Shown: positions 807 through 3,732 of the stretch, one piece after another
Numbering within the stretch: position 1 is the stretch's first letter
Layout of the letters: each line of letters opens with the position of its first letter
From: Aliterella atlantica CENA595
GTDB lineage: Bacteria; Cyanobacteriota; Cyanobacteriia; Cyanobacteriales; Chroococcidiopsidaceae
Assembly: GCF_000952155.1 (NCBI RefSeq)
Contig: NZ_JYON01000002.1
Coordinates: 62,001-126,000 of the forward strand
Direction of reading: 5' to 3'
Length of the DNA: 64,000 nucleotides
The notes under the pieces: generated by a model
Told to the model about the DNA's origin: nothing
Databases searched by the model: none
The model's input: the letters and a program-made list of their open reading frames with translations, nothing else
Position numbers and translations under genes: made by a program

Positions 807-932
807 GTGGCGGGTAGCTCAAAGGTAGAGCGCCAATTTCGCCTGAAAAGGACGCAGAATCGAGGGTTATCGTTGAAAAATAATCTCCTTGATTCATAGG
901 GATGCGGGTTCAATTCCTGCTCCGCTACACCA
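807..932 (+). ncRNA. tRNA-like RNA 1 with conserved anticodon-arm insert
   Basis: The 8-nt strands GTGGCGGG (807-814) and TCCGCTAC (921-928) form an acceptor stem, followed by an encoded ACCA. TA and a 4-bp D stem (GCTC/GAGC) with a GG-containing loop follow the 5' strand. The T arm is GCGGG-TTCAATT-CCTGC. In place of an anticodon arm is the shared insert, with a bulged hairpin and the 3' motif GAATCGAGGGTTATCG (857-872). A further hairpin (about 884-903) occupies a long variable region. The RNA is 126 nt against about 76 for a class I tRNA. It is nearly a duplicate of the next unit. No standard anticodon loop can be drawn, so this is more likely a tRNA mimic than a translating tRNA. Confidence 0.75.
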
Positions 933-954
933 AAACCAAACTAACAAACTACTT

Positions 955-1082
955 GTGGCGGGTAGCTCAAATGGTAGAGCGCCAATTTTGCCTGAAAAGG
1001 ACGCAGAATTGAGGGTTATCGCTGAAAATCGAATACCTTAATTCGCCGGAGATGCGGGTTCAATTCTCGCTCTGCTACACCA
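955..1082 (+). ncRNA. tRNA-like RNA 2 with conserved anticodon-arm insert
   Basis: Closely related to unit 1. The acceptor strands GTGGCGGG and TCTGCTAC pair over 8 bp with wobbles, followed by ACCA. The D arm is GCTC-AAATGGTA-GAGC and the T arm GCGGG-TTCAATT-CTCGC. The insert forms a hairpin from CAATT and AATTG around GCC/GGAC and ends in GAATTGAGGGTTATCG (1006-1021). A second hairpin (CGAAT/ATTCG, 1030-1045) sits in the variable region. It differs from unit 1 mainly in that second hairpin and in wobble-preserving stem changes, which suggests recent duplication with selection on structure. Confidence 0.75.
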
Positions 1083-1120: not shown

Positions 1121-1250
1121 GTGGCGGATAGCTCAGTGGATAGAGCGCTAAAATATCCTTGTTCATAACTTGTCTGTAAAGACCGAAGAATTGAGGGTTA
1201 TCGAATTCCAATCGAGAGGTCGCAGGTTCGAGTCCTGCTCCGCTACACCA
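1121..1250 (+). ncRNA. tRNA-like RNA 3 with conserved anticodon-arm insert
   Basis: Acceptor GTGGCGGA/TCCGCTAC (8 bp) followed by encoded ACCA. The D arm is GCTC-AGTGGATA-GAGC and the T arm GCAGG-TTCGAGT-CCTGC. The insert contains ATCCTT (1154-1159), which can pair with GAGGGT downstream. Between them is the hairpin TTGTCT-GTAA-AGACCGAA (1170-1187), with a GUAA tetraloop and one bulged C. It ends in GAATTGAGGGTTATCG (1188-1203). A normal 5-bp anticodon stem is not evident: only two pairs form next to the D stem. This is the clearest example of the shared insert. Confidence 0.78.
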
Positions 1251-1294: not shown

Positions 1295-1438
1295 GTAGCA
1301 GGTGGCGAAATGGTAAACGCGCTAGTTAAAAGCCTTAGTTTGACATCTTGCCCATAAGGGACGCAGAATTGAGGGTTATCGGGAGCTAGTACCGTAAGGT
1401 TTGTAGGTTCAAGTCCTACTCTGCTACAAAAAAACTAC
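1295..1438 (+). ncRNA. tRNA-like RNA 4, Leu-like class II body, with conserved insert
   Basis: Acceptor GTAGCAGG/TCTGCTAC (8 bp); the 3' end runs into AAAA with no encoded CCA. The D arm (GGCG...CGC) and a short extra arm around CCGTAAGG look like cyanobacterial tRNA-Leu, and the T arm is GTAGG-TTCAAGT-CCTAC. A 5-bp anticodon stem can be drawn from CTAGT and GCTAG. The insert has CCTTAG, the hairpin GCCC-ATAA-GGGACG, and ends in GAATTGAGGGTTATCG (1366-1381). It is thus a class II tRNA body carrying the same insert as the class I-like units. Confidence 0.75.
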
Positions 1439-1442
1439 TTAT

Positions 1443-1619
1443 GGGGTGGGACTCTAAATATTGTTGAATAGGCAATATTTTAGAGAAAATTCCTTCTCTT
1501 GAAAAGCTCTGTGGAAGGAAACCTTCCCCACAGACTTTCCGCTGTTCATAACTTGCTTGCAAGAGCCGACGAATTGAGGATTATCGGATTATTAGGTTCG
1601 ACTCCTAACCCGCCCCCCA
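1443..1619 (+). ncRNA. tRNA-like RNA 5, enlarged, with hairpin replacing the D arm
   Basis: Acceptor GGGGTGGG/CCCGCCCC (8 bp, one G-U) followed immediately by CCA, without an unpaired discriminator base. The T arm is TTAGG-TTCGACT-CCTAA. There is no tRNA D arm. Instead, 1452-1485 folds as a long AT-rich hairpin, followed by a GC-rich hairpin (CTGTGG...CCACAG, about 1508-1533). The shared insert follows: the hairpin TTGCTT-GCAA-GAGCCGA (1553-1569), then GACGAATTGAGGATTATCG. At 177 nt it is the longest unit and the least tRNA-like, yet it keeps the T arm, acceptor and insert. Confidence 0.7.
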
Positions 1620-1653: not shown

Positions 1654-1778
1654 GTGATGGGTAGCTCAGTGGTAGAGCGCTAATATCCTTATTCATTTCC
1701 TTGTCTGCAAAGACCGAAGAATTGAGGGTTATCGACTTATCAGCGAGAGGTCGCAGGTTCGATTCCTGCCTCATCACA
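1654..1778 (+). ncRNA. tRNA-like RNA 6 with conserved anticodon-arm insert
   Basis: Acceptor GTGATGGG/CTCATCAC (8 bp) then A; no complete CCA is encoded (ACAA follows). The D arm is GCTC-AGTGGTA-GAGC and the T arm GCAGG-TTCGATT-CCTGC. The insert carries TATCCTT, the hairpin TTGTCT-GCAA-AGACCGAA (1701-1718) with a GNRA loop and bulged C, and ends in GAATTGAGGGTTATCG (1719-1734). The remaining anticodon-arm pairing is CGCT with AGCG, directly stacked on the D stem. Confidence 0.77.
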
Positions 1779-1792
1779 CAAAACAAGCTCAG

Positions 1793-1951
1793 GGGACGGG
1801 TAGCCAAGTGGTTTAAGGCGGCTGTCAAAAACCTTAGTTGTTTAGGCAATTCTAATTATAGAAATTAGCTGACTTGCCTGTAAAGGCTGAAAAGTTGAGG
1901 ATTATCGCCAAAACAGTTATTCGGAGGTTCAAATCCTCCTCCGTTCCACCA
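1793..1951 (+). ncRNA. tRNA-like RNA 7, canonical class I body with 87-nt insert
   Basis: Acceptor GGGACGGG/TCCGTTCC (8 bp) then ACCA. The D arm is GCC-AAGTGGTTTAA-GGC. A canonical 5-bp anticodon stem (GCTGT 1821-1825, ACAGT 1913-1917) is followed by a 5-nt variable region and the T arm GGAGG-TTCAAAT-CCTCC. The insert lies inside the anticodon loop. It has CCTTAGTT, an extra hairpin CTAATT/AATTAG, then TTGCCT-GTAA-AGGCTGAA (1874-1891, bulged U) and AAGTTGAGGATTATCG. No choice of junction restores a 7-nt loop with U at position 33, which argues against a simple removable intron. Confidence 0.78.
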
Positions 1952-1969
1952 AAACCATTTCTACTATAT

Positions 1970-2095
1970 CTGGCGGTTAGCTCAAATAGCAGAGCAACCA
2001 GCAATCCTTAGTTAATAACTTGTCTATTCAAGACCGAAAATTGAGGATTACCGTTAACTGGGAGATTATGGGTGCAAATCCCATCCCGCCAGCCA
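1970..2095 (+). ncRNA. tRNA-like RNA 8, adjoining the Ro60 gene
   Basis: Acceptor CTGGCGG/CCGCCAG with a T-C mismatch at its base, followed directly by CCA. The D stem is GCTC/GAGC, but the loop lacks the usual GG. The anticodon stem is ACCAG 1997-2001 with CTGGG 2058-2062, the variable region 5 nt, and the T arm ATGGG-TGCAAAT-CCCAT. The 56-nt insert has AATCCTT pairing over 7 bp with GAGGATT, enclosing GTCT-ATTCA-AGAC with a bulged C. The unit ends only 32 bases before the Ro60 start codon, so RNA and mRNA must be separated by processing at its CCA end. Confidence 0.75.
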
Positions 2096-2102
2096 ACTAT
2101 TT

Positions 2103-2120
2103 TTGCCTGCAAAGGCTGGA
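2103..2120 (+). promoter_or_regulatory. Orphan copy of the array hairpin in the Ro60 mRNA leader
   Basis: TTGCCT-GCAA-AGGCTGGA (2103-2120) is almost the same hairpin as in tRNA-like RNA 7. It has a GCCT/AGGC stem, a GNRA loop, one bulged U and then U-G pairs. It lies 8 bases before the ATG at 2128 and contains the only purine-rich stretch that could act as a ribosome binding site (AAAGG). If Ro60 binds this hairpin in the array RNAs, it could bind its own leader and repress translation. The match is seen; the regulation is inferred. Confidence 0.5.
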
Positions 2121-2127
2121 CAAAGTT

Positions 2128-3732
2128 ATGAATTACAACTTTTTTACTAAAAAACAGTCTGGAACTCCTCAAAATCAGCCTATTCCTGGACGCGACTCAG
2201 AGATGATTAAAGGGCTTTCCAGTGGATATATGTTTGATGGTGGTATTTGGAGTATGCTGCGCCGTTGCTTGCTTATTGGTACAGCGAAAAGCACCTACTA
2301 TGCTGGTAAGCAAGAACTAACAGATGATTTTGTTAGCGTATTGCAAAATGCGATCGCCCAAAACCCCACCCGCGTGGCTGAAGAAATCGTGTATGCTAGC
2401 GATGGTCGCTCTATCAATAACAGCGCTCCTATCTTGGCTTTAGTCTTGCTATCTATGGGCGAAACCAAAGCAGCAAAACAAGCTTTTCAAGAAATATTTC
2501 CTACTGTCATCCGTACTGGTAGCCATTTCTACGAATGGTTGAGCTATACCAAATCTCTACGCGGCTTTGGTAAGGTAGTGCGGGAAGCTGGTAAAACATG
2601 GCTGTCGCGTGAAGATGTCAAAGGCTTGGCTTATCAGCTATTGAAGTACCAACAGCGCCAAGGCTTTACTCACCGAGATGCTTTGCGCCTATTTCACGTC
2701 AAGCCACCTACTGAAGAACACCGTCAGTTGTTTGAGTGGGTAGTCAAAGGCTGGTCAGAATTGCCTAGCGAAATTCCTACCCCTGTACTTACTCAAATTT
2801 GGTGGTACGAATGGCTAAAGCGCAACCCCGAACAAACTCATCGCGCTATTTCCCAAGGACATCTAACTCATGAAATGGCTGCGCCTGTAGGCAAAATGGA
2901 CAAAGCTGCATGGCAATTGCTATTTGCGGAAATGCCTATTGGTGCAATGTTGCGTAATTTGGGTTCATTAACTGAATTAGGCGTACTGCGAACTGATGAA
3001 CGCAATAACTTAAAGCGCATAGAAGATACTCTAAATAGTAAAGAGCGTCTCCGCAAGGGACGCATTCACCCTATCGATGTTCTCAAAGCGCTAAAAACCT
3101 ATAGTTCTGGTGGAAAAACAGGGCGCAGCCAAAAAACTTGGCAACCCGTACCTCGAATTGTAGACATTCTAGAAAAGGCGTTAGAAATGTCTTTTGATGT
3201 CGTAGAACCTACAAAAAAAGTGTTTATGCACGCTGTAGACGTTTCTGGTTCGATGTCTTGGGGTGTGGTAAATTCTGTCGGCTTGAGTTGTTGCGAAATT
3301 GCGACAGCAATGGCGTTAGTAACAGCAAAAGCGGAGGAAAACTACGCAATTCGTGGTTTTTCTACTGAGTTCTGCGATTTGGGTATTACAGCTAAAGACT
3401 CGTTTAGTTCGGCTTTGAAGAAGGCTAGCAACCAAAACTTCGGCGGAACTGATGCTTCTGTCGCTTACGACTGGATGATTAAAAACAAGTTCAAAGCAGA
3501 TGTAATTTGTTTTTGGACTGATTCAGAAAGTTGGGCGGGAAATAAGCATCCTAGCCAAGCGTTAGCGCAGTACCGTCAAAAAGTAAATCCAAATGTCAAA
3601 GCGGTTTATATTACCCTTGCGCCTTACCAATTAACTTTGGTAGACCCTCAAGATCCTTTATCTTGGGATATGGGCGGATTCGATCCTGGAATACCCCGCA
3701 TTATCCAAATGCTGGCTAATGGTGACATTTAA
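2128..3732 (+). CDS. Ro60/Rsr orthologue (TROVE and vWA domains)
   Basis: RNA-binding ring protein of 534 aa, the usual Ro60 length. In animals and bacteria such proteins bind Y RNAs and misfolded RNAs. The N-terminal two thirds is the helical-repeat TROVE module, beginning MNYNFFTKKQSGTPQNQPIPG with the conserved GG(I/F)W segment. The C-terminal vWA domain has an intact MIDAS: D371-x-S373-x-S375 (VDVSGSMSW), T441/D442 (GGTD) and D in FWTDSES. I chose the ATG at 2128 because the upstream in-frame ATG at 2020 lies inside tRNA-like RNA 8. The gene directly follows the eight-unit RNA array, as bacterial Y RNA genes often sit next to rsr. No RtcB or PNPase gene is nearby in this window. Confidence 0.93.
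   Translation: MNYNFFTKKQSGTPQNQPIPGRDSEMIKGLSSGYMFDGGIWSMLRRCLLIGTAKSTYYAGKQELTDDFVSVLQNAIAQNPTRVAEEIVYASDGRSINNSAPILALVLLSMGETKAAKQAFQEIFPTVIRTGSHFYEWLSYTKSLRGFGKVVREAGKTWLSREDVKGLAYQLLKYQQRQGFTHRDALRLFHVKPPTEEHRQLFEWVVKGWSELPSEIPTPVLTQIWWYEWLKRNPEQTHRAISQGHLTHEMAAPVGKMDKAAWQLLFAEMPIGAMLRNLGSLTELGVLRTDERNNLKRIEDTLNSKERLRKGRIHPIDVLKALKTYSSGGKTGRSQKTWQPVPRIVDILEKALEMSFDVVEPTKKVFMHAVDVSGSMSWGVVNSVGLSCCEIATAMALVTAKAEENYAIRGFSTEFCDLGITAKDSFSSALKKASNQNFGGTDASVAYDWMIKNKFKADVICFWTDSESWAGNKHPSQALAQYRQKVNPNVKAVYITLAPYQLTLVDPQDPLSWDMGGFDPGIPRIIQMLANGDI

Follow-up and report, generated by a model that had tools for sequence, protein, structure and literature searches.

In the bacterial Y RNA YrlA, the Ro60 stem is formed by pairing of the 5′ and 3′ ends, and T-arm, acceptor and D-arm make up a tRNA-like domain (PMC8394870). 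Bacterial and vertebrate Y RNAs are described as not homologous (PMC4726728). Vertebrate Y RNAs contain the short motif UUAUC (PMC4726728). In nematodes, full-length stem-bulge RNA (sbRNA) needs this motif, at the loop's 5′ edge, for activity in vitro (PMC4450293). We analysed 64,000 nucleotides (nt) of the genome of Aliterella atlantica CENA595 (contig NZ_JYON01000002.1, positions 62,001 to 126,000; hereafter the window), in which eight tandem tRNA-like units (807-2095) lie immediately 5′ of a Ro60 gene (2128-3732). These units have no anticodon arm and carry in its place a hairpin, P1, and a conserved GAAUUGAGGGUUAUCG box. P1 is very probably the helix by which a cyanobacterial Y RNA binds Ro60, and the units are predicted to be non-decoding tRNA mimics. 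Computation showed the structure of the insert, its synteny and co-occurrence with Ro60, a permuted homology to known Y RNAs, and a copy of the hairpin, with its position, in the ro60 leader. For comparison, 80 Ro60 loci from GTDB genomes and, separately, 386 genomes of the phylum were used.

The consensus of P1 is UUG-NNN-loop-NNN-C-(bulge)-GA. It is enclosed by a helix of 8-9 bp, P2 (CCUUG(A)UUC with GAA(U)UGAGG), and UUAUC is conserved 3′ of the upper stem. In type B units (units 1 and 2 of the window), the pairing partner of the box is a CCUUnAUUC strand that lies 3′ of the box, not 5′ of the hairpin. The hairpin pattern has five matches in the window (0.44 expected; at most three in 100 shuffles), and the box GARTTGAGGRTTAYCG has ten (0.17 expected), eight of which fall within the eight units. 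The first-pass annotation had read the hairpin at 1170 correctly (1170-1186). Its stems are confirmed as well: GUCU/AGAC for units 3, 6 and 8, GCUU/GAGC for unit 5, and GCCU/AGGC both for unit 7 and for the leader. The GCAA or GUAA loops that it listed are GUAA in units 3 and 7 and GCAA in units 5 and 6 and the leader; unit 8 has the loop AUUCA. The annotation had also assigned a variant with a shifted bulge to units 1, 2 and 4; units 1 and 2 do differ, having a second architecture with GAAA loops, whereas unit 4 has the normal architecture with A replacing the first C after the stem. The bulged base of unit 7 and of the leader is U instead of C.

P1 is a real hairpin. In 177 unambiguous cyanobacterial parses all four loop-adjacent pairs are present in 135 and three in 40, and the commonest loops are GAAA (45), GCAA (41), UUCG (18), GUAA (17) and GGAA (11), together 132 of the 177. 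When 62 diverse inserts were aligned on sequence alone, P1 showed 36 double-change cells against 13.8 in shuffles, with far lower values in slid controls; a model-fitted alignment of 112 distinct rows gave 40 against 7.1. A tree-based null, re-implemented in the manner of R-scape (not R-scape itself) on 145 distinct rows, returned E values of 0.003-0.034 over 14 tested pairs for pairs 12-36 (P2), 20-31, 21-30 and 23-28 (P1). Six of the eight top-scoring column pairs under this null are structural, and the alignment on sequence alone gives largely the same top pairs. The covariation of the stem, read earlier as evidence for RNA structure and with its absence from a large alignment named as grounds for refutation, persists in such an alignment when set against a tree-aware null. 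An analysis restricted to the 150 best-scoring matches was discarded as too conserved and replaced by the more diverse set. Over the whole unit, 22 of 29 pairs were changed on both sides, with 115 double-change cells against 27 in shuffles, a count somewhat flattered by the choice of 32 units in which P1 and acceptor pairing were required.

The locus encodes a bona fide Ro60. Its open reading frame matches the Pfam families vWA_Ro60 (2e-38) and TROVE (9e-17), and the best PDB matches are Deinococcus Rsr (2NVO, 6e-73) and Xenopus Ro60 (1YVP, 7e-68); the nearest relatives come from Aliterella, Chlorogloea and Chroococcus (88% identity). Residues K173, R177 and H190 align with K170, R174 and H187 of the Xenopus protein, which matter for Y RNA binding, and the residues at these positions are kept in every cyanobacterial Ro60 examined. 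Cyanobacterial Ro60 proteins form one clade (support 0.95; FastTree, no outgroup).

The insert is closely tied to this gene. A Ro60 match was found in 41 of the 386 genomes of the phylum, and a covariance model of the insert (R1) detected about 290 copies in 95 sources, from cyanobacterial Ro60 loci. R1 matched in all 32 genomes (among the 386) whose Ro60 is nearly full length and at least 70% identical; outside these, it gave weak matches in only two further genomes, one of which holds a decayed array without Ro60 (locus L152, with no TROVE match). Loci with at least 3 kb of upstream sequence contain up to eight units, most commonly three. The box of the last unit lies 96 nt 5′ of the ATG in 37 of 69 loci, and eight of the 69 have a single unit only. 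In the laboratory strain Picosynechococcus PCC 7002 the system is carried on plasmid pAQ7; for this copy no RNA gene appears in the table of PLSDB, where RNA genes are not listed. Viral contigs yielded seven box matches and no units among them.

The acceptor stem, D-arm and T-arm of the units follow each other in normal tRNA order, and five units exceed 30 bits with the Rfam tRNA model. ARAGORN nevertheless found zero tRNAs in the window, and no more than one tRNA in the five other array loci that were checked, since the anticodon arm is absent and the Y stem stands in its place. Acceptor strands form on average 6.94 of 7 pairs within units, a value biased upward by the acceptance of units with at least six acceptor pairs, against 5.34 of 7 with the strand of a neighbour where neighbours differ. 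An eighth acceptor pair, -1:73, is present in 166 of 192 units, mostly as G-C; the resulting 8-bp acceptor is also that of tRNA-Sec and tRNA-His, from which the units differ in having no anticodon arm. The units are very probably bacterial Y RNAs that function in tRNA order, with their ends at the acceptor stem and the Ro60 helix closed by a tetraloop. No report of Y RNAs in tRNA order was found in the searchable literature, a search outside which the main Y RNA papers lay.

Like YrlA (RF02553), the units adjoin the Ro60/Rsr gene, mimic the T-, acceptor and D-arms of tRNA in one module, and have a two-part Y stem with a bulged helix of the Ro60-binding type. In YrlA, however, the ends are in the Ro60 stem and the acceptor stem is closed, whereas the acceptor of the cyanobacterial units is open (often with an encoded CCA) and their Ro60 stem is closed by the tetraloop; unlike YrlA, they also form tandem arrays of up to eight. 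The gathering score of the Rfam YrlA model was reached in none of the 386 genomes. Matches of this model across neighbouring units had been considered as proof of permutation and were rejected, as tandem ordinary tRNAs score as high. Because the model is unspecific, a permuted model (R2) was built from 32 units rearranged in silico (T half, TTTT, D half) and searched in Ro60 loci outside the cyanobacterial clade. Full-length matches were found where expected, beside Ro60, in Nonomuraea (67.3 bits), Gordonia phages (64.2 and 63.9 bits), Mycobacterium phage Sparky (56.0 bits) and Streptomyces phage Belfort (48.7 and 45.0 bits). Such matches also occur in Rhizobium, between the TROVE and RtcB genes (46.3 and 39.2 bits), and in Bosea (34.7 bits). 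Tandem-tRNA controls reached at most 27.8 bits. The GGUUAUC box recurs in several of the R2-matched actinobacterial and phage Y RNAs, and the unpermuted R1 had no matches in the five non-cyanobacterial Ro60 loci searched. A relationship of the units to bacterial Y RNAs (YrlA), with their parts circularly shifted, is therefore well supported, and the idea of a circular permutation, first raised from the letters of the hairpin, is borne out by Y RNAs that permuted units detect beside Ro60 elsewhere, far above controls. As a natural counterpart, in tRNA order, of the permuted Y RNAs, the units make both mimicry and permutation testable on homologues.

One genome of the same phylum and another class (G044) contains an array of nearly 30 ordinary tRNA genes with a Ro60 gene alongside (L113:900-6320, minus strand). 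Both forms seem to coexist within this array, one as a permuted Y RNA, the other as Y-like units in tRNA order that R1 matches (30.0 and 25.6 bits). This seeming coexistence and the tree without outgroup give no polarity for the permutation.

A further copy of the hairpin is located in the ro60 mRNA leader. The full P1 motif was found just 5′ of the ATG in 31 of 37 distinct ro60 leaders (dinucleotide shuffles: mean 1.7, maximum 6). In most leaders it ends 12 nt from the ATG and runs into the Shine-Dalgarno sequence, e.g. TTTTTG CCC GCAA GGG C Y GGGAG. Since Ro60 is the common partner of all hairpin copies, this suggests, as the simplest reading, translational autoregulation of ro60. A Ro60 feedback switch of this kind was not found in the searchable papers, among which the main Y RNA papers were not included.

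Several observations speak against P1 as the Ro60-binding helix of Y RNAs. Folding energies of single sequences are unremarkable (z between -0.1 and -2.0); as they are uninformative, the evidence for the hairpin is comparative. Units 1, 2 and 4, and about one fifth of homologues (A-C, not C-C), have a shifted or altered bulge. The Rfam YrlA match over neighbouring units (32 bits) is unspecific, with tandem ordinary tRNAs reaching 44, and no bacterial Y RNA is matched by RF00019, the model for vertebrate Y RNAs. P1 might instead be a structural cap or processing signal, with Ro60 bound elsewhere. No tool result favours this, and it is made very unlikely by the core that P1 shares with the animal Ro60 site (a bulged base, and UUG opposite CCGA), by the co-occurrence with Ro60 and by the reuse of the hairpin at the ro60 ribosome-binding site.

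Two other explanations concern the units as a whole. In one, cleavage of the array within the P1 loops would yield mature RNAs of the classical YrlA form, each joining the 3′ half of a unit to the 5′ half of the following one. YrlA model matches do span neighbouring units, but no better than they span tandem ordinary tRNAs; moreover, the acceptor strands pair inside the unit and not with the neighbour, eight of the 69 loci hold one complete unit only, and the presumed cutting sites are conserved tetraloops, which together leave this explanation improbable. The inserts could also be introns of true tRNA genes that are spliced to decoding tRNAs, given that they occupy the position of the anticodon arm between flanks that score as tRNA. 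This is hardly credible: the insert itself is the conserved part, it is restricted to ro60 loci, the hairpin also occurs at the ro60 ribosome-binding site without any tRNA, and the ARAGORN counts given above are against it. Nor is a bacterial enzyme known that handles introns as short as these.

The Y stem that replaces the anticodon arm is built of P2, the 9-bp upper helix, followed by an internal loop and by P1, which is bulged and ends in a GNRA or UUCG tetraloop. If P1 is the Ro60-binding helix, the array may be cut into single units by tRNA-processing enzymes, after which the outer surface of Ro60 would grip P1. The tRNA-like body could then gate the Ro60 ring or tether Ro60 to a partner such as PNPase. 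Free Ro60 might repress its own translation through the leader hairpin until it is titrated by Y RNA.

A connection with eukaryotic Y RNAs is suggested by the nematode sbRNA model RF01656, which matches Y RNAs of Gordonia phages from end to end (31.8 bits; E 8e-5 in 351 nt). Searched per phage genome, it gave E values of 2.8e-6 and 2.1e-5, with no match outside the Y RNAs in those records. The order of elements in its consensus (GGUCCGGaGucgaUGGGUUAUC ... CCCAucgaCACCAACUUGACC) is that of the cyanobacterial insert in the permuted reading; in both, a bulged C is followed by an upper stem of 9 bp, then by UUAUC, and UUG is preceded by an internal loop rich in A and C. Nematode sbRNAs and vertebrate Y RNAs resemble the units in the bulged lower stem, in the 9-bp upper stem with G-C ends and in having UUAUC where the loop begins on its 5′ side (PMC4450293, PMC4726728), and differ in that animal Y RNAs have a variable loop where bacterial ones have the tRNA-like body. 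The link is only suggestive, because RF00019 remained unmatched and RF01656 gave no match to the cyanobacterial units. It would connect UUAUC, a motif needed by nematode sbRNA in vitro for reasons not explained, with bacterial Y RNAs. In a tentative and rather doubtful scenario, Y RNAs may have begun as tRNAs whose anticodon arm was turned into a Ro60 grip. The arrays would keep that order, the permuted YrlA and the animal Y RNAs (which would have lost the tRNA body) would descend from it, UUAUC would be what is left of the junction, and Ro60 would control its own translation via a Y-hairpin mimic on its ribosome-binding site.

Features of the window are summarized in Table 1. A scan for promoters and terminators there gave nothing clearly above chance.

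Table 1. Units, P1 hairpins and Ro60 gene of the A. atlantica window
Feature	Position	Strand	Remarks
Unit 1 (type B insert)	807..932	+	8-bp acceptor with G-1:C73, encoded CCA; Rfam tRNA 33.6 bits
P1 of unit 1	839..855	+	Variant TCG CCT GAAA AGG ACG
Unit 2 (type B insert)	955..1082	+	Encoded CCA; Rfam tRNA 32.5 bits
P1 of unit 2	988..1004	+	Variant, GAAA loop
Unit 3 (type A insert)	1121..1250	+	Encoded CCA
Entire insert of unit 3	1153..1203	+	P2 strand, P1 hairpin, box GAATTGAGGGTTATCG with UUAUC; model R1, 73.9 bits
P1 of unit 3	1170..1186	+	UUG UCU-GUAA-AGA C C GA; reads TTGTCTGTAAAGACCGA; covariation
Unit 4 (type A insert)	1295..1427	+	Rfam tRNA 36.1 bits
P1 of unit 4	1348..1364	+	AUAA loop, A at bulge site
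Unit 5	1443..1619	+	D-arm region aberrant; acceptor GGGGTGG/CCGCCCC
P1 of unit 5	1553..1569	+	GCUU-GCAA-GAGC, bulged C
Unit 6 (type A insert)	1654..1777	+	Rfam tRNA 44.5 bits
P1 of unit 6	1701..1717	+	GUCU-GCAA-AGAC
Unit 7	1793..1951	+	Encoded CCA; Rfam tRNA 38.5 bits
P1 of unit 7	1874..1890	+	GCCU-GUAA-AGGC, bulged U
Unit 8	1970..2095	+	Nearest to ro60
P1 of unit 8	2020..2037	+	GUCU-AUUCA-AGAC
P1-type hairpin in ro60 mRNA leader	2103..2120	+	Overlaps Shine-Dalgarno GGA
Ro60/Rsr protein (TROVE + vWA)	2128..3732	+	534 amino acids (aa); Pfam, PDB matches

Unit-like elements also occur 3′ of the ro60 stop codon in 58 of the 69 loci (e.g. L058:6650-6760 and L090:6990-7110, plus strand). They comprise an acceptor stem, a Y insert and a T-arm, and those inspected by eye lack a recognisable D-arm; the window has no unit-like element after the ro60 stop. 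Genome G143 has a second such locus, not beside ro60 (L153:3850-4000, minus strand), in which the Y hairpin comes after a tRNA-like fold and not at its anticodon position. Genome G038 has about eight tRNA genes just 5′ of a TROVE gene (L119:3250-4990, plus strand) with an insert of about 27 nt in the T-arm (GGTTGCTTCGCAATCCGC...GCTTCGAGTCC), the exact core of which was found in no other locus fetched.

A 477-aa protein (L175:5449-6882, plus strand; relatives L177-L192) is encoded in 28 of the 386 genomes of the phylum. It had no Pfam, NCBIfam or PDB-sequence match. Compared with a Ro60 profile by HHalign, it aligned over nearly its full length (probability 98.2%, E 4e-14), with the HxKP and vWA motif kept. 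Apparently, these loci represent a second, divergent Ro60 system; in the 16 checked, permuted Y-like RNA motifs (GAAGCnTACAnAC ... GCTTTTCnAACTTGCGC) lie 5′ of the gene, and the leader often contains a mini-hairpin.
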